Of a stretch of DNA of 22,015 nucleotides, positions 2,102 to 22,015 are shown piece after piece. The stretch is taken from positions 1-22,015 of IMG/VR virus record IMGVR_UViG_3300031972_000193; one strand, 5' to 3'. A program made the translations under genes and the position numbers. Positions within the stretch are counted from its first letter, which is position 1, and each line of letters starts with the position of its first letter. This DNA comes from a virus. The notes beneath the pieces are model-generated. The model had not been told where the DNA came from. It saw only the letters and a list, made by a program, of their open reading frames with translations, and ran no database searches.

Positions 2102-2342
2102 TCCAGTAAATCCAAATCATTATAAAGATGGCGCTGTAGAGTGCATTGATGCAATAGAGTCCAGTATGACACCTGAAGCTTTTGCTGGTTATTGTAAGGG
2201 TAATATACTCAAATACATCTGGCGCTATGAAAAGAAGGATAAGCTAATCGGACTTAAAAAAGCTCAGTGGTATTTGAATATGCTAATTGAGATAGAAGAT
2301 AAAGACACACCAATGCCTGATGATGAATGGAAAAGGGTTTAG
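2094..2342 (+). CDS. DUF3310 phage protein (82 aa)
   Basis: Matches the DUF3310 pattern: NPNHYKDGAVECIDAIES near the N-terminus, then FAGYCKGNILKYIWRYEKKD, then a KKAQWYLNMLIE helix. The family is common in phages infecting many hosts. It is often labelled a nucleotide kinase, but no P-loop or kinase motif is visible here, so I leave the function open. It is the last gene of the rightward block. Its TAG (2340-2342) overlaps the TAA of the convergent nuclease gene by four bases, so no terminator separates the two opposing transcripts. Confidence 0.85.
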   Translation: MNDPVNPNHYKDGAVECIDAIESSMTPEAFAGYCKGNILKYIWRYEKKDKLIGLKKAQWYLNMLIEIEDKDTPMPDDEWKRV

Positions 2343-2671
2343 TCTTTGTGCAGATTAATAAAGTATTCAGCTTCTACTACAGCTAAAGTTTTAGATCTAT
2401 TTCGTTTAATAATAACTAATGGCTCATGCTCGCCGCAGTTAGCAGATGCCTGGTCATAAGCCTTCCAGATATTTAAAGCTTCCTGGCATTTACATTCTAT
2501 AGAATAAGGAAAAGCATCTCTTGCCTCTTTACTCATAATCACATCTTCGCCACCAGCTCCCATTGAGGTTGATCTTACATTCTCTGGATGTATGTCCAAG
2601 AGTTCTATAAGTTTATCTCTAACCCATTGCTGAAGTTTGCGACCTTTTTGTTTTGCTGATTGTGGTTTCAT
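2339..2671 (-). CDS. Resolvase-like PD-(D/E)XK nuclease (110 aa)
   Basis: A small nuclease-fold protein of the type often annotated as phage Holliday-junction resolvase or VRR-like endonuclease. Visible motifs: an N-terminal basic helix (QKGRKLQQWVRD), the loop STSMGAGGEDVIMS with Asp43, and the catalytic strand IECK with Glu59 and Lys61 followed by a polar helix (QEALNIWKAYDQ). Asp-(15)-Glu-x-Lys is the PD-(D/E)XK signature. It would cut branched DNA made by the recombination genes upstream on the same strand. No convincing Shine-Dalgarno precedes its ATG; a TATAAT hexamer lies about 30 bases upstream (2702-2707). The fold assignment is good; the junction substrate is inferred. Confidence 0.75.
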   Translation of the reverse strand: MKPQSAKQKGRKLQQWVRDKLIELLDIHPENVRSTSMGAGGEDVIMSKEARDAFPYSIECKCQEALNIWKAYDQASANCGEHEPLVIIKRNRSKTLAVVEAEYFINLHKD

Positions 2672-2752: not shown

Positions 2753-3253
2753 TTATATCGAAGGTTTGCCTGTCTCCGCAGCAGCCATACTTGGTGGTAC
2801 ATCAGCCTGTGTAGGCGGAGTAAAACCATCATCCTTCGGCGTTCTAAATGCAACTATCTCATTAGAAGTTTCACGATAATCTTCGTTAGGATTATCGCTA
2901 TTATCTTTCTCTGAAACAGTAACCAGTAAAGTTTTACCTTGTAGGTCCGTTGCATCATCTGGTGCATTAGTCATACCAAGAGCAGTAAGAAGTCGTTTAA
3001 AGTCAGACTGTGCATAGCCTCTAACTTCTTCTTTAGGGTGCCACAAAGAAAAATACTTTCTTAGGACCCAGCCATTGTACTTAGGCTCATTGTGAACTTT
3101 ACATTCAAGCTTAATGCTTTCATTGCCAGCAGCAGATGTGTATTTCTCACATGTATAAATAATACAATTATAATCACCTTTCGGTATATAAGGCTGTGAA
3201 GCCTCCATTTCTGATTCCATATTAGCGAAATCCATTCCATCAAAGTCAGACAT
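2753..3253 (-). CDS. DUF669 ssDNA-binding-like recombination protein (166 aa)
   Basis: Belongs, by pattern, to DUF669, phage proteins regularly encoded beside Sak4/Erf-type recombination genes and thought to bind single-stranded DNA. The PKGDYNCIIYTCE element (24-36), the AGNESIKLECKV strand (42-53), the KYNGWVLRKYF segment (58-68), and the SDFKRLLTALG helix (83-93) are the recognisable blocks. The C-terminal 50 residues are low-complexity and proline/alanine-rich, ending GKPSI. It therefore lacks the acidic SSB tip that the unrelated 117-aa protein at 628-981 has. Its ATG is fused to the Sak4-like stop (TAATG) and preceded by AAAGGAG inside that gene, indicating coupled production. It probably coats ssDNA made by the exonuclease. 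Confidence 0.75.
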   Translation of the reverse strand: MSDFDGMDFANMESEMEASQPYIPKGDYNCIIYTCEKYTSAAGNESIKLECKVHNEPKYNGWVLRKYFSLWHPKEEVRGYAQSDFKRLLTALGMTNAPDDATDLQGKTLLVTVSEKDNSDNPNEDYRETSNEIVAFRTPKDDGFTPPTQADVPPSMAAAETGKPSI

Positions 3254-3960
3254 TATGCTTCTCCTTTAAATCCTAACTTGTTAATAATTAATGATAAGTC
3301 TGGCTTCTCAAGAGGCTCCAACTTACCACTCCTATCCTTAGCTATATAATTAGAGCCAAGAGTTGTTTGCAACCAACGTTCCGTTGTCTTCTTACCTTTA
3401 TCATCTTCAACATCAAATGTTCTAAGACATAAGACTTCATCAAAGAAGTAAGGTATTTGAGTTGGTAGTTTTGCTCCAACCATCATTGGTTGATAGTGCA
3501 ACATACCAGTTGCTTCATCTCGTACTTCTTGCTGTTTAGCAATAAATACTACATGAATAGGTAGGTCCCTAAATCTACGCATGGTCTTGGTCATTATCTG
3601 AATAACCTCGCCATAAGCTTTTCTTGGGTCCTTATTCTTTTTGAACTCATTTGCTAAAACAATCTCTGACATTTCTGTCACGCTGTCTAAACAAACAGTA
3701 TCATAGTCTAACTTGCCACTTTCTAATAGCTGAGCTATCTCTTCTATTTCAGCTGCCTCTTTGACTTCAATAGCAGTCACGTTCTTAGCATCTTTAATAG
3801 ATAGAAGACCAGCTTCCATACTTATAACAAGAGTCTTGCCTGGCACAGTTTGACACAGAGTTGTTTTACCACCACCTGAGATTCCGTAAACCAATAGCTT
3901 GGCCCCTTGTGATTCGACTAGCTCACTCGGGCTTTTTATACGACTTATAATATCGCTCAT
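3253..3960 (-). CDS. Sak4-like RecA-fold recombination ATPase (AAA_24)
   Basis: A 235-residue P-loop ATPase of the AAA_24/Sak4 type, single-domain relatives of RecA/Rad51 that promote strand annealing in phages, usually with an SSB partner. Walker A is GISGGGKTT (26-34, Lys32), and Walker B is the strand TVCLDS with Asp92. A sensor-like strand HVVFIAKQQE follows. The translated context agrees: the DUF669 gene directly follows with a TAATG junction. GGAGG precedes the ATG, and the two-way promoter at 3987-4017 would drive it with a leader of about 20 bases. A general phage nucleotide-binding protein label is the fallback; the Sak4 role is inferred from fold plus neighbours. Confidence 0.8.
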   Translation of the reverse strand: MSDIISRIKSPSELVESQGAKLLVYGISGGGKTTLCQTVPGKTLVISMEAGLLSIKDAKNVTAIEVKEAAEIEEIAQLLESGKLDYDTVCLDSVTEMSEIVLANEFKKNKDPRKAYGEVIQIMTKTMRRFRDLPIHVVFIAKQQEVRDEATGMLHYQPMMVGAKLPTQIPYFFDEVLCLRTFDVEDDKGKKTTERWLQTTLGSNYIAKDRSGKLEPLEKPDLSLIINKLGFKGEA

Positions 3961-3986: not shown

Positions 3987-4017
3987 AGTATACAGAGTAA
4001 AAATCTATCTGTATACT
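3987..4017. promoter_or_regulatory. Symmetric bidirectional promoter built on a perfect inverted repeat
   Basis: AGTATACAGA (3987-3996) and its exact reverse complement TCTGTATACT (4008-4017) are separated by 11 bp. On the plus strand this gives TATACA (3989-3994), 17 bp, TATACT (4012-4017). On the minus strand it gives the same TATACA, 17 bp, TATACT using the same bases. Each arm is thus the -35 for one direction and the -10 for the other. Predicted starts are near 4024 (plus) and 3980 (minus), serving the helix-turn-helix/primase and Sak4-like/DUF669 operons. The repeat is also a natural operator for a dimeric repressor, possibly the adjacent helix-turn-helix protein. Confidence 0.7.
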
Positions 4018-4052
4018 CATTGTTTAAAATAAATTTATTACAAAAAGCAACC

Positions 4053-4388
4053 ATGAGCAAAGTAGATAAAAACCAATGGAAAGTGAATTATTTATACAGG
4101 CTTCAACAGTTATGTAACAAAGATTTAGACGTCTTATATGCTAACAAACTAGAGCCAGAATACAAGGAGAGAGAAGTGAATCGTATATCTTTAAGAGATT
4201 ATATTGCCTATATAGGCAACGCTGGAGCAGCAAAGTTATTTGAATGTTCTGAAGCAACGGCAAAGTCCTGGAGGTATGGCCAAAGGCAACCATCCATCAA
4301 ACAGGCGAAGAAGATAATCAAGGCAGCAGACGGCAAGCTAGACTTTGAATCTATCTATGGATCACTTGAAACTACATTTGAAGAATAG
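4053..4388 (+). CDS. Helix-turn-helix protein, Cro/YdaS-like (111 aa)
   Basis: Residues 47-103 resemble the Cro/YdaS type of DNA-binding domain: LRDYIAYIGNAGAAKLF, then CSEATAKSWRYGQRQPS (turn and recognition helix), then IKQAKKIIKAADG. The N-terminal 45 residues are helical and unassigned. I start it at the ATG at 4053. The in-frame TTG at 4020 would lie upstream of the expected transcript start (about 4024). There is no clear Shine-Dalgarno; the leader is A-rich. It is divergent from the Sak4-like gene across the perfect inverted repeat at 3987-4017, so I infer that it may regulate both operons, or act as a replication-initiation DNA binder for the primase-helicase five bases downstream. 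Confidence 0.65.
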   Translation: MSKVDKNQWKVNYLYRLQQLCNKDLDVLYANKLEPEYKEREVNRISLRDYIAYIGNAGAAKLFECSEATAKSWRYGQRQPSIKQAKKIIKAADGKLDFESIYGSLETTFEE

Positions 4389-4393
4389 TAGAA

Positions 4394-6514
4394 GTGTTCA
4401 ACGTCAAAGCAACAGCAGAAGATTCTGCGTTGGACTTAGCGCTTGCTTATGCGGAGTCAGGATTTAGTGTAGTTCCGTTACAACGCCATAATAAGGTCCC
4501 ACCAAAAGGACTAGGCAGTTGGGAAAAGTATAAGAGCGAACAGCCAACAACAGAAGATATAACAAGATGGTTCAAAGGCCGTGATGATTTAGTCGTAGCC
4601 TTAGTAACTGGAAAGTTCTTAGTTATAGATGCAGATACACCAGAGGCAGTTATATGGGCTGCCAATAATTTACCAGTCACCCCATTAAAGGTAGCTACTG
4701 GTAAGGGTATGCACTACTACTACAATAACCCAGAAAATTTCACGACTTATGTTGCAAGGAGAACTGCGGATTTTGATCCTGCGAAGCTCATTGATATAAG
4801 AGGCGTCGGTGGTCTGATTATTGCCCCCTATAATATTCATGCTACTGGCGCTATTTATGAACCACAGGTCATACCAGGTTGGGAGTTGTATGACACAGGA
4901 GATTTACCAGACTTTAGCCGTGAGGATTGGGTCAAGGTAACAGGTGCAGACAAGATCAATGGCAAACCCATTGCTACACCATTATCTTTAGAGGCAGCAG
5001 CAGAAGGTAGTCGTAATGATACAGCAGCAAGATTAGCAGGATATCTGATAGCCAAAGGCTTGAATGTAGACTTTGCACAATTCTTTTTACAGTCATGGAA
5101 CAGAACAAACAAACCACCTTTATCTGATACGGAGATAGCGACTACTGTAAATTCTATAATGAAAACCCATGAGCGTAAGAACCAAGCGGCTCCTACCTAC
5201 ATGTCCAAGAACAGAGTTATCAAAGAGCCAGAGAACCTCTACTCACCACCAGGCATACTTAAAGACATCTACGAATACTCTGAAAGCATAGCGCAGATTT
5301 CACAGCCAGCACTTAGCTTGCAATCAGCTTTAGGTCTGGCCTCAGTTGCAGCAGGTCGTATGTATAAATCAGATATGAACAACTACTCGTCTTTGTATTT
5401 TATGTGTATCGCCAAGTCAGGTCAGGGCAAAGAGAATACCAAGACTGTTATTGAATCTATCTTAGATGCTTCTGGTCATGTGGACCTTATGGCTGGAGAT
5501 GGTTATACATCAAGTGGCGCTGTTTATAGTCTGCTACGCCATAGACCAACTCATATTACTGTAATGGACGAGTTTGGTAAAAGATTAGAGAGTATAGCCA
5601 AGTCATCCAACTCTAACAAAGAAGACGCCCTACAGGTTCTCATGGAGTCTTGGGGTCGTTGTCATGGCACTATTAGACCTGATAACTATTCGCTTATGAA
5701 TATGTCTAGCAAACAACAAGAAGAGGCTATGGATAGATCTACCATCAAGCCAGCTATAACACTTATGGGTATGAGTGTGCCTAAGAATTTTTACGGCGCT
5801 TTATCTACAGGTAGAATTGTAGACGGCTTTTTAAATAGGTTTATTGTGGTTGAGTCTAAGCTACCTAGAGTTGTAGGCAGAATGGTGCCGTTTATAGAAC
5901 CATCTTATGAGATATGTGAATGGGTTAGGAAGATGCGAGAAACTAAGAATGAAATGGAAGAGCTTGCCAAGAACAACTCAGAGATGGACTTCAAGCAACG
6001 TATCTTGGTCTTTGATGATGAGAGTAAAGAGTTACTAACCAAGCTTGCATACAAACTTATAGAAGAACAAGACGCTTTAGAGAAAGATGGCTTAGAAGTA
6101 TTGCTATCAAGAACTAGAGAAAAGGCCATGCGTTTAGCTTTGATATGTGCATTGGCTGACAATCCAAAGACAAGAGTTATCAGAAGCGACATGACCAAGT
6201 GGGCTATTGATTATGTTTACTACTATGACCAACTGCTTGTAGATAATTGTGAAGACAAGGTAGCTGGCTCAGAAACAGAAGGTAAGATTAAACAGGTGCT
6301 TAGCTTTATTAGATCGCAAGGTGAGATAGGTATAAGTAAGCGTGATATAGATAGACGTGAAATCTTTAGAAGTATGAAGTCATACGAAGTCAAAGAGATT
6401 ATAGAAAGACTTAAAAACTCTGGAGAAATCCAAGAGAAAGATGTTAAGACTAAAACTACAGGCAGACCAACTAAACGTATTGTGGCGATTGATCCTGAGT
6501 TTTTTGATGACTAA
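4394..6514 (+). CDS. Primase-helicase: PrimPol domain fused to DUF3987 ATPase (706 aa)
   Basis: A replication initiator-type fusion. The N-terminal archaeo-eukaryotic primase/polymerase domain (about 12-180) has VIDAD with metal-binding Asp79 and Asp81, TGKGMHYYY with His107, and DIRGVGGLIIAP (134-145). A PriCT-like helical linker follows (about 204-262). The DUF3987 ATPase core (about 285-620) has a P-loop-like AKSGQGKENT (340-349), a Walker B VMDEFG (Asp392, Glu393), and helical regions beyond. The C-terminal 90 residues look like a winged-helix domain (GEIGISKRDIDRREIFR). It starts at GTG because the conserved ALAYAESGFSVVPLQ block begins soon after and no better start exists. The P-loop has Glu after GK where Ser/Thr is usual. 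It should prime and unwind phage DNA. Confidence 0.85.
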   Translation: MFNVKATAEDSALDLALAYAESGFSVVPLQRHNKVPPKGLGSWEKYKSEQPTTEDITRWFKGRDDLVVALVTGKFLVIDADTPEAVIWAANNLPVTPLKVATGKGMHYYYNNPENFTTYVARRTADFDPAKLIDIRGVGGLIIAPYNIHATGAIYEPQVIPGWELYDTGDLPDFSREDWVKVTGADKINGKPIATPLSLEAAAEGSRNDTAARLAGYLIAKGLNVDFAQFFLQSWNRTNKPPLSDTEIATTVNSIMKTHERKNQAAPTYMSKNRVIKEPENLYSPPGILKDIYEYSESIAQISQPALSLQSALGLASVAAGRMYKSDMNNYSSLYFMCIAKSGQGKENTKTVIESILDASGHVDLMAGDGYTSSGAVYSLLRHRPTHITVMDEFGKRLESIAKSSNSNKEDALQVLMESWGRCHGTIRPDNYSLMNMSSKQQEEAMDRSTIKPAITLMGMSVPKNFYGALSTGRIVDGFLNRFIVVESKLPRVVGRMVPFIEPSYEICEWVRKMRETKNEMEELAKNNSEMDFKQRILVFDDESKELLTKLAYKLIEEQDALEKDGLEVLLSRTREKAMRLALICALADNPKTRVIRSDMTKWAIDYVYYYDQLLVDNCEDKVAGSETEGKIKQVLSFIRSQGEIGISKRDIDRREIFRSMKSYEVKEIIERLKNSGEIQEKDVKTKTTGRPTKRIVAIDPEFFDD

Positions 6515-19402: not shown

Positions 19403-21142
19403 TTAATTCCAAGTATAGACTTTAAGAGCTTTTGCCTTTCCTTTAACTTTTAAGTCTTCTAAAGATTTTAACTTAAAACTACAACTTTTGGCAGTCTCAT
19501 GTCCTATAAGAAAATCAACACCTGCTTCTTTAGTTCCAGACTCAAGACGTGCTGCTACATTTACGCAGTCACCAATCGCCGTATAATCAAATCTATTATC
19601 TGAACCCATATTGCCTATAACTGCAAAGCCTGTGTTTACACCAACGCCTATTTCTATACCTAAACCAGATAGCTTTACTTCATCTTGTATTTCTTTAGCG
19701 CAAAGAATTGCAGCGTCTTCGTGATTATCTAAGTCTATAGGAGCATTAAATATGGCCATCATTGCGTCACCAATATATTTATCTACCATTCCCTCATATT
19801 TTTTTACAGCGTTAGCTTGAATGGTTAGAGCTTTGTTCATAATCTCTGTTACTTCTTCTGGTTCTAATTGTTCTGACAAAGAAGTAAAGCCTCTAACATC
19901 TGTAAATAAAAATGTGCATCTTCTTCTTTCGCCACCAAGTTTTAAAAGCTCGGGGTTGTCTTGCAATTGTTTAACTTGCCTCGGATCAAGATAATGCTCA
20001 AATTGTTTTTTGATTAATTGGCGTAATTTAAACTGTTTTCTAAAGTTTAGATAAAAAGCAATAGCCCCAGTTATGAACTGTGAGATAAAAGTCCATGAAA
20101 AATCTATTAAATAACCTTTTTGGATGCTAAAAAAGCCTGAGAGCGCCGTAGTCACAAGCAAAATTACAGCAACACTTACACCCTTGGTTATACCAAAAGA
20201 GTTTATTGAGAGCCATGTGAGAGTAACAAATATCCCAAAAATTAAAATTTCTAAAGCTATTGAAAAATCTGGTATATGTGGAGAGTTTTCTATAAGAATT
20301 GACTCAGATAATGCTGCTTGAATCTTATGTGGCTCTAATAATCCAGATGGAGTTGCAATCTGTGGCATAATTCCATTTGCAGTAACACCAATAAATACAA
20401 ATTTACCTGCTACATCCATTTCTTCTAAAGTTGTTTGCGGTGTATCTACCCAACTTATCCACTTGCGGCCATAATTATCTACAGGTATTGGAGCTAAACC
20501 TTTTATCACTATTTCTTCTAATCCATTATTATTAGTTTTTATAATGTATGTATTAGATCCTGCAAGTATTTTTAACACCTGCGTTCCAAATGCAGGAGAC
20601 CAACCTTCAGGCGTCTTCATTAGTAATGGTATTCTTCTAACCAAGTTGTCTATATCAACTGGTGCAGATGCAATTCCTTGCGTAGCTTCTGCTTTTAATA
20701 CATCTATATTCTCAACAATACCAGGTGACATATATCCACCTACGTCATCTCCAAGTATGACAGTTCCTGTAGTTGGCGGATAAGAACCGCTAGGACTTTC
20801 AAACATAGCTAGAACACTTGGTCTAAGCTCAAGAGCTGTTGCAAAGAACTTATCTCCGCCAAACCTATCTGGCTCACTAAAAGATACTACCCAGCCAACA
20901 CCTATAGCACCTTCAGCTAAAATATCTAATTGTATCTGCGCTAAATCTTTTCTAGGAAATGGCCATCCTCCTCTTTTGCGAACATCATCTTCTGTGATAT
21001 TAAGAGTGGTAAAGTAGCCAGATGGTTCTTGCTCTGCAACGTAAGCATCAAATATTTTTAGTTTAAGTATTTCTGTAGGCGTGCTTTGAAACACCAAAGG
21101 CAAGCTTAGTATTATAAGTATGGGTAATAATAGCTTATTCAC
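19403..21142 (-). CDS. CHASE2-domain class III adenylate/guanylate cyclase (579 aa)
   Basis: A membrane sensor that should make cAMP (or cGMP). Residues 1-18 are a signal-anchor. About 25-285 is a CHASE2 domain, placed in the periplasm (GGWPFPRKDLAQIQLDIL, SEPDRFGGDKFFATALE, DIDNLVRRIPLL). Three membrane spans follow (about 295-312, 320-338, 348-367), the standard CHASE2 arrangement. The cytoplasmic cyclase domain (about 400-579) has every canonical residue: metal-binding Asp415 (FTDVRGFT) and Asp459 (DKYIGDAMM), substrate-binding Lys455 and Thr521, and transition-state Asn528 and Arg532 (GDCVNVAARLE). Thr521 replaces the usual Asp, a class IIIb trait. It starts at GTG and overlaps the FecR gene by 8 bp. 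Its presence in a phage late operon is unusual. Confidence 0.93.
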   Translation of the reverse strand: MNKLLLPILIILSLPLVFQSTPTEILKLKIFDAYVAEQEPSGYFTTLNITEDDVRKRGGWPFPRKDLAQIQLDILAEGAIGVGWVVSFSEPDRFGGDKFFATALELRPSVLAMFESPSGSYPPTTGTVILGDDVGGYMSPGIVENIDVLKAEATQGIASAPVDIDNLVRRIPLLMKTPEGWSPAFGTQVLKILAGSNTYIIKTNNNGLEEIVIKGLAPIPVDNYGRKWISWVDTPQTTLEEMDVAGKFVFIGVTANGIMPQIATPSGLLEPHKIQAALSESILIENSPHIPDFSIALEILIFGIFVTLTWLSINSFGITKGVSVAVILLVTTALSGFFSIQKGYLIDFSWTFISQFITGAIAFYLNFRKQFKLRQLIKKQFEHYLDPRQVKQLQDNPELLKLGGERRRCTFLFTDVRGFTSLSEQLEPEEVTEIMNKALTIQANAVKKYEGMVDKYIGDAMMAIFNAPIDLDNHEDAAILCAKEIQDEVKLSGLGIEIGVGVNTGFAVIGNMGSDNRFDYTAIGDCVNVAARLESGTKEAGVDFLIGHETAKSCSFKLKSLEDLKVKGKAKALKVYTWN

Positions 21143-22015
21143 TTTGCGTTATGGTTATATTAGAATCACCACCACCGTTAATCTTAACTACATTAGATAC
21201 TCCATCCTGGATAATAATAAGTGTATAAGAGCCATTGCCGTTTAAATCTAATCTAACCGAATCATTTACTTTTCTTCTTAGACTTATTATATCACCTTGA
21301 ACTAGGGTAGTTATTTGGGTATCTGGATCTTGTCCTATTCTAGTACCTGTTAAATTAATACCGCCTGCATCTGCTAATACATCTTCCTCTTCACCAATAG
21401 CCAAAGAATCTAATACATTAAGCAAGTCTTCTAAAAAGTTAGTATCAAGGTAGTTAATATCAAGCTCTGTAAACTCTAGCTCATCTTCTCCCAAGAAGTC
21501 TTCATCAAGATAGTCTATATCAAGATCATTAAAATCTAGTATGTTTGCTTTAGCGTTTTGTGATACTTCTTCAGTAAGAGTAGTTTGTCGTTTAGGCGAC
21601 GTAACAATAAGCATGTTATCTATAATGTCTAATGTTAAATCTAGTATGACTGGTTTACTTGGCTTAGATTCAAAGACGCTTACAGTAGTAGCTTCAAATG
21701 GCTTATTAAGTATGACACTTCCCATAGCTGTAACTACTTCTATTTCACCACTAGATAAACCTAAAGCATCTGGTAGCAGTATAATAAGTGACCTGCCTAA
21801 TTCGTCTACTGTGGCTGTAAAATCTGTGCCTCTTATAGCTATATTAGCTGTAGGAGTTTTAAGTGATATATTTTGTTTATCTATTTTGCCTAAGTTACCT
21901 GTAATGAACCTAGCTGTACCAAGCCCAAAGGTAAGGGCCATCTTTGCTTTGCTTGGGTCTGGATCATAGATGTATTCATCTATAGTTAGTTGTGAGTGTT
22001 CAGTTAGTTTTACTG
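21135..22015 (-). CDS. FecR-domain protein with acidic repeats (5' end missing)
   Basis: The frame stays open to the window edge, so the first in-frame Met inside the window (21941) is not the start. The upstream residues (HSQLTIDEYIYDPDPSKAKM) continue into GLGTARFITGNLGK, then ISLKTPTANIAIRGTDFTAT, the core FecR fold with its RGTDF signature. FecR domains are typically periplasmic. Numbered from that Met, residues about 134-190 are strongly acidic and hold two copies of a 14-residue unit. The last 75 residues form a separate beta-rich region (QITTLVQGDIISLRRKV, SVRLDLNGNGSYTLIII). It overlaps the cyclase start by 8 bp, so the two are co-produced and probably work together at the envelope. 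A signal peptide, if any, lies outside the window. Confidence 0.85.
   Translation of the reverse strand, partial: VKLTEHSQLTIDEYIYDPDPSKAKMALTFGLGTARFITGNLGKIDKQNISLKTPTANIAIRGTDFTATVDELGRSLIILLPDALGLSSGEIEVVTAMGSVILNKPFEATTVSVFESKPSKPVILDLTLDIIDNMLIVTSPKRQTTLTEEVSQNAKANILDFNDLDIDYLDEDFLGEDELEFTELDINYLDTNFLEDLLNVLDSLAIGEEEDVLADAGGINLTGTRIGQDPDTQITTLVQGDIISLRRKVNDSVRLDLNGNGSYTLIIIQDGVSNVVKINGGGDSNITITQSE
21432..21533 (-). repeat. Acidic 14-residue direct repeat in the FecR-domain protein
   Basis: FNDLDIDYLDEDFL (137-150 from the in-window Met) and FTELDINYLDTNFL (157-170) are spaced 20 residues apart and match at most positions. The DNA copies differ at several sites, so the duplication is not recent or the unit is under protein-level selection. 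Asp/Glu density suggests metal binding or a charged docking surface. Confidence 0.7.

Follow-up and report, generated by a model that had tools for sequence, protein, structure and literature searches.

The operator bioO is one imperfect palindrome whose widely spaced half-sites lie over facing promoters, and BirA represses these promoters jointly. For Tn10, tetO is described at the overlapping divergent promoters of tetA and tetR (Bertrand et al., 1983, as cited in PMC11686294), and the Pr/Pc switch of pLS20 with RcoLS20 is an elaborate version of divergent promoters that share an operator (PMC4207663). The bioA/bioB promoter pair of E. coli was also among the bidirectional promoters tested by Warman, Grainger and colleagues, at which one side, when strongly activated, can repress the other (PMC12825309).

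Here, a virus record of 22,015 bases (the window) was analyzed with respect to an inverted repeat in the 92-nt gap between a Sak4-like gene and the gene of a 111-aa helix-turn-helix (HTH) protein, which are transcribed away from each other (Table 1). The repeat is probably a single operator for the Cro-like protein encoded next to it, superimposed on two overlapping divergent promoters, from which the protein would repress both sides as well as its own gene; the promoters and the binding are predicted.

The inverted repeat, its predicted promoters and the flanking genes

Positions 3987-4017 (AGTATACAGAGTAAAAATCTATCTGTATACT) form a perfect 10-bp inverted repeat, in which the arms AGTATACAGA (3987-3996) and TCTGTATACT (4008-4017) are separated by 11 nt. 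An earlier note on this DNA had given the sequence and position of the repeat correctly, and its reading of TATACA and TATACT, separated by 17 bp, on each strand was confirmed in the window sequence. Within the 22-kb window the repeat, taken alone, is unremarkable: 0.7 perfect 10-bp inverted repeats with an interior no longer than 20 are expected per shuffled window. Inside the 92-nt intergenic stretch the probability of the same repeat arising by chance is p ~0.004, and no other copy was found in the window. It is the conservation in relatives, not the window sequence alone, for which the repeat is taken as selected.

Table 1. Positions of the genes, predicted promoters and putative operator parts in the window.
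Feature	Positions	Strand	Basis
RusA-like / PDDEXK nuclease, leftward gene 3	2339..2671	-	phrog_244 5.2e-19
DUF669 / phage ssDNA-binding protein	2753..3253	-	PF05037 3.2e-11; phrog_378 1.1e-11
Sak4-like ATPase (AAA_24), leftward operon gene 1	3253..3960	-	PF13479 6e-29; phrog_124 5.8e-50
Predicted Sak4-operon promoter, TATACA-17-TATACT	3987..4015	-	promoter scan and relatives
Predicted HTH/Prim-Pol operon promoter, TATACA-17-TATACT	3989..4017	+	promoter scan and relatives
Putative left operator half-site, AGTATACA (conserved octamer), holding the minus-strand -10 (3987-3992) and the plus-strand -35 (3989-3994)	3987..3994		invariant in 18 relatives' versions except a coupled A/T change
Repeat interior, 15 bp	3995..4009		sequence varies (13 distinct versions), length constant
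Putative right operator half-site, TGTATACT, holding the minus-strand -35 (4010-4015) and the plus-strand -10 (4012-4017)	4010..4017		conserved octamer in relatives
Cro/CI-type HTH protein, 111 aa, proposed repeat ligand	4053..4388	+	phrog_35 8e-4; AlphaFold2
Prim-Pol / PriCT_1 / DUF3987 primase-helicase	4394..6514	+	profile matches

The inverted repeat overlaps core elements of both predicted divergent promoters. The plus promoter is placed ~35 nt upstream of the HTH ATG, near the plus-promoter position in related clades. The -35 TATACA is a weak consensus match (4/6), and promoter-like matches are not enriched across the window (61 found, 62.9 expected in shuffles). In 16 of the 18 relatives' versions described below, the arm promoters score highest within the intergenic stretch on each strand. 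The -10 hexamers of the two strands are 19 bp apart, and the predicted starts, ~45 bp apart, fall outside the repeat, which would then not be transcribed. This argues against an RNA hairpin (leader or terminator) in place of a DNA site. The window repeat folds at ~-11 kcal/mol (z -3.8 with flanks); however, in some relatives the stems are reduced to as little as 8 bp (-4.6 to -6.3 kcal/mol) while the 15 nt between the octamers stay constant, and neither a T tract nor an Rfam match was found, so that a hairpin appears extremely improbable.

The earlier note had further proposed a symmetric either/or switch, in which a polymerase bound at one promoter would mask the other, so that one operon is selected. 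The predicted promoters overlap almost fully, and their simultaneous occupancy on one DNA molecule would be impossible. However, both operons are parts of one DNA replication/recombination module, since every listed gene except the HTH gene is a replication or recombination gene. The HTH protein is the only regulator at the locus, so that neither state could be maintained by mutual feedback. An integrase (PF00589) was not found in the window or in 17 related records of up to 53 kb, which may be fragments, and the locus has one regulator in place of the two opposing repressors of a lambda-type lysis/lysogeny switch; a genome scan for a prophage form found none. The cultured roseophages CRP-901 and CRP-902, compared below, are described as strictly lytic (PMC10149686), and at five E. 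coli bidirectional promoters basal transcription was too low for polymerase competition (PMC12825309). Because the operons serve one process under one regulator, and in view of these further observations, a choice between operons is very unlikely, and this part of the proposal was not upheld.

The HTH gene comprises 111 codons from the ATG at 4053. Sequence matches of its product are marginal (a phrog_35 repressor; Pfam Cro/HTH_3 below cut-off), no match was obtained in a phage database search, and a sequence search of solved structures returned nothing meaningful. In the AlphaFold2 model (pLDDT 84), a Cro/CI-type HTH spans approximately residues 45-105. Residues 43-109 best match the N-terminal domain of YdaS (Z 8.2, rmsd 3.6 A, 67 aligned), and further matches were CylR2 (Z 7.5, rmsd 2.0, 60 aligned) as well as Xfaso 1 Cro and P22 c2 (Z 7.3-7.0). 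A lambda-repressor-like helical HTH fold is predicted for the protein, at modest Z values.

At the other end of the window (19403-22013, minus strand), a CHASE2-adenylate/guanylate cyclase (PF05226 8e-26, PF00211 2e-18) and a FecR-domain protein adjoin phage lysis genes. The sensor cyclase appears to be phage-borne, because three further contigs of the group (L614, L615 and L616) carry diverged homologues (64-73% for the cyclase) close to the phage lysozyme gene; in L614 and L616, SNase and Rz-like genes are also near the homologue.

Conservation of the repeat in related phages

Fetching loci with the HTH gene gave 506 loci, of which many overlap because they come from one contig, and 61 distinct intergenic versions. 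The window layout, AGT(A/T)TACA-15-TGTA(A/T)ACT, is present in 18 distinct versions (group I), at a distance of 24, 26 or 27 from the Sak4 ATG and of 34 or 35 from the HTH ATG. The interior is 15 bp long in 18/18 versions with 13 different sequences; the defining pattern fixes this length, and all retrieved close relatives, read directly, had no other length. Compared to the window, 6-11 of the 15 interior bases differ, or 6-9 in the relatives in which no arm base does, whereas the 16 arm bases are all the same except in the L046 clade; at fourfold-degenerate sites of the Sak4 gene most group I relatives have 41-67% identity to the window. The conserved unit is the 8-bp cores AGTATACA/TGTATACT, and the inner arm bases (GA/TC) are mostly variable. 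In L046, L059 and L063, which are close relatives and were counted as one event, both arms carry a substitution at mirror positions, from AGTATACA/TGTATACT to AGTTTACA-15-TGTAAACT, as would be expected of a dimer-bound site. The 35-nt leader of the HTH gene (4018-4052) is well conserved in group I and, unlike the Sak4 side, has no evident Shine-Dalgarno sequence.

A second divergent region of the window, at 309-395, has abutting -35s (minus TTGACA-16-TATACT, plus TTTACA-17-TGTAAT), and TATACT is thus the minus-strand -10 here too. Relatives share the region, including a TTTACATGTCAAAC core, and its plus -10 drifts among them. That the region is another operator of the HTH protein was rejected, since its GTTTACATGTCAAAC does not change along with the arms in the genome of L046 (GTAGACAAGTCAAAC, L522); it looks like two back-to-back -35s.

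The arms of the inverted repeat might be kept only as the -35 and -10 of two promoters, with the palindrome as a by-product that no regulator reads. The geometry and the 17-bp spacers fit this, as do the top rank of the arm promoters and a sister clade (group II; 28 versions, HTH ~58-68% identical among the members aligned) that has the interlock without a perfect palindrome. There, the minus -10 is ATTTTA or ATTCTA and the plus -10 TACAAT. The facing -10s are 18 bp apart around nine different interiors, with flanking distances of 26 to 30 and 31 to 41; the group II pattern fixes the 18-bp distance, but in an open count of -10 pairs 18 was found in 28/28 and no other distance in more than 10. 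The predicted layout keeps each -10 overlapping the -35 of the opposite strand. The L046 change would likewise give a better -35 (TTTACA) and a worse -10 (TAAACT) on both strands. However, the group I arm hexamers are fixed at non-consensus bases in all versions, while other promoters of these phages drift: in the second divergent region, the plus -10 is TATAAT, TATACT, TATATT, TATAGT or TGTAAT among relatives. In addition, both arms changed together in the L046 clade, and CRP-901/902 keep core and spacing although the -10s at their arms match the consensus at only ~3/6. That promoters alone maintain the repeat is therefore unlikely.

Apart from the coupled change, arms and 15-bp spacing are kept in the 18 distinct versions; conservation in relatives was one of the checks that the earlier note had suggested. 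The interlocked promoters are supported, as far as promoter prediction goes, by their top rank in 16/18 versions and by the same geometry with another sequence in the sister clade. The note had also held that unrelated sequence at this spot in relatives would speak against them; this applies weakly to distant relatives, while group II still has predicted overlapping divergent promoters.

In groups III and IV, the plus promoter is predicted 31-33 nt before the HTH ATG, with inverted repeats over the promoter: TTGTTTTC-14-GAAAACAA, AAGTTTTC-14-GAAAACTT, AATTGAG-17-CTCAATT and AATTCGT-15-ACGAATT. Most of these are singly non-significant (p ~0.03-0.2), and the arms are imperfect in some group III members. 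A second coupled arm change was found here, TTG..CAA to AAG..CTT (TTGTTTTC/GAAAACAA compared to AAGTTTTC/GAAAACTT), so that compensating changes in both arms have kept the repeat as a repeat in two clades, in few independent events. Across the clades compared, where the arms differ the recognition helix differs too. This covariation of protein and DNA is suggestive only, because identical group I arms are combined with a variety of recognition helices (SEATAK, SEATVK, SEATVS and TENTAK).

The occurrence of the same arms with several helices would also fit a real operator that is recognized by a protein of the host or by a different protein of the phage. An autoregulator encoded adjacent to its operator is, however, the usual arrangement. 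Phage clades with different arm sequences also have different HTH proteins, and a Cro/C1 HTH is encoded at this place in the CRP phages. A reader other than the adjacent HTH protein is accordingly given little weight. Only tentatively, and with more doubt than belief, can it be proposed that this HTH family of lytic phages re-codes its own operator (AGTATACA, AGTTTACA, TTGTTTTC, AAGTTTTC and others) at a fixed place and with near-fixed half-site spacing, in step with the recognition helix, and that in group I the operator and both promoters have been fused into one perfect palindrome. If true, the family would offer a natural series for the evolution of repressor specificity under functional overlapping promoters.

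The repeat pattern alone is not diagnostic of the family, because many matches lie outside it: in a pattern scan of the viral collection, 58 of the 102 matches examined, among the matches listed, were outside this HTH family. By a crude test, 31 of these 58 were not inside an ORF of at least 100 aa, and many are copies of a few sequences. A LexA box, CTG-N10-CAG, was rejected as an identity of the repeat, in which the CTG/CAG order is the opposite, outward one.

The palindrome in the cultured roseophages CRP-901 and CRP-902

CRP-901 and CRP-902 (OQ401623, OQ401624; PMC10149686), phages of Roseobacter FZCC0083 that are described as having no RNA polymerase of their own, resemble the window in a divergent gap with a palindrome. 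Leftward of it lie DUF669, an ATP-binding protein and one extra gene, and rightward a Cro/C1 HTH and Prim-Pol. The gap contains TTTACAG-13-CTGTAAA in CRP-902 and ATCTTTACAG-13-CTGTAAAGAT in CRP-901, upstream of HTH and Prim-Pol, and this is the sole such site per genome when up to two mismatches are allowed. TTTACA-15-TGTAAA, in both phages, equals L046 in core and spacing. In contrast to the window, the HTH protein has 59 aa, the leftward side has the extra gene and the would-be -10s at the arms (TAAAGA, TAAACC) are poor, so that the palindrome is kept without good predicted promoters inside the arms. Both are HTH proteins, but at an hhalign probability of 4% the CRP protein is not a shown orthologue of the window protein. 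The palindrome is not mentioned in the available text of PMC10149686, and it has no annotated feature in the records of CRP-902 (L507 4686-4795) and CRP-901 (L611 3677-3798). Having a similar locus in culture, CRP-901 and CRP-902 are experimentally tractable.

The predicted shared operator and known systems

Two constraints are visible in these sequences. Promoter geometry is conserved in group II, which lacks the palindrome, and dyad symmetry in the CRP phages, which lack good -10s; in group I, one set of bases carries both. The simplest account would be a repressor that controls its own gene and shuts both promoters. The 31-bp palindrome would act as a single operator superimposed on two interlocked divergent sigma-70-type promoters, and the 111-aa Cro/CI-like protein would bind the two inverted half-sites as a dimer or higher oligomer. 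The half-site centres are 23 bp apart, ~two helical turns, which is wider than in a classical lambda-type operator. Once made, the protein would keep polymerase off both promoters and would thereby turn down the Sak4/DUF669/RusA operon and the primase operon along with its own gene. As long as there is no repression, the promoters would be mutually exclusive only per DNA molecule and moment, an exclusion that may balance the two halves of one replication/recombination module and would not choose between them. We infer the use of these promoters, the binding by the HTH protein, its oligomeric state and repression upon binding. The idea of the earlier note that a dimeric repressor silences both sides thus gains support from the fixed arms, the fixed spacing, the coupled change and the core and spacing in CRP-901/902. 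For uncultivated marine phages of a widespread group, the repeat is predicted to be a specific and testable control point for early replication genes. It would also be a compact case of the same bases serving two promoters and one repressor.

As proposed here, the locus resembles Tn10 tetA/tetR in the flanking autoregulated repressor and in palindromic operator sequence at overlapping promoters that are both shut; Tn10, however, has a TetR-family protein, a small-molecule inducer and two operators, whereas the phage has one palindrome and a Cro/CI-like protein without a known inducer. With bioA/bioB it would share the palindrome with wide half-sites, jointly repressed facing promoters and functionally linked genes on both sides. 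BirA is encoded elsewhere and is a biotin sensor, while the repeat in the phage has no mismatches and its half-sites fall exactly on the predicted -10/-35 hexamers. The pLS20 switch is similar in its overlapping divergent promoters, the regulator beside them and an operator overlapping both (predicted in the phage), but its unequal promoters, tetramer, DNA looping between two operators and low-dose self-activation (PMC4207663) were not seen in the phage. The E. coli bidirectional promoters have in common with the phage repeat the sequence symmetry and two mutually exclusive polymerase orientations (PMC12825309). Those of Warman et al. share a -10, with starts mostly 10-23 bp apart, whereas in the phage each -10 overlaps the other's -35 and the starts are predicted ~45 bp apart, which places the repeat outside that definition. 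Overlapping divergent promoters with a shared operator, as predicted here, are of the classical kind known from tetA/tetR and bioA/bioB, and what this locus would contribute is economy of sequence.
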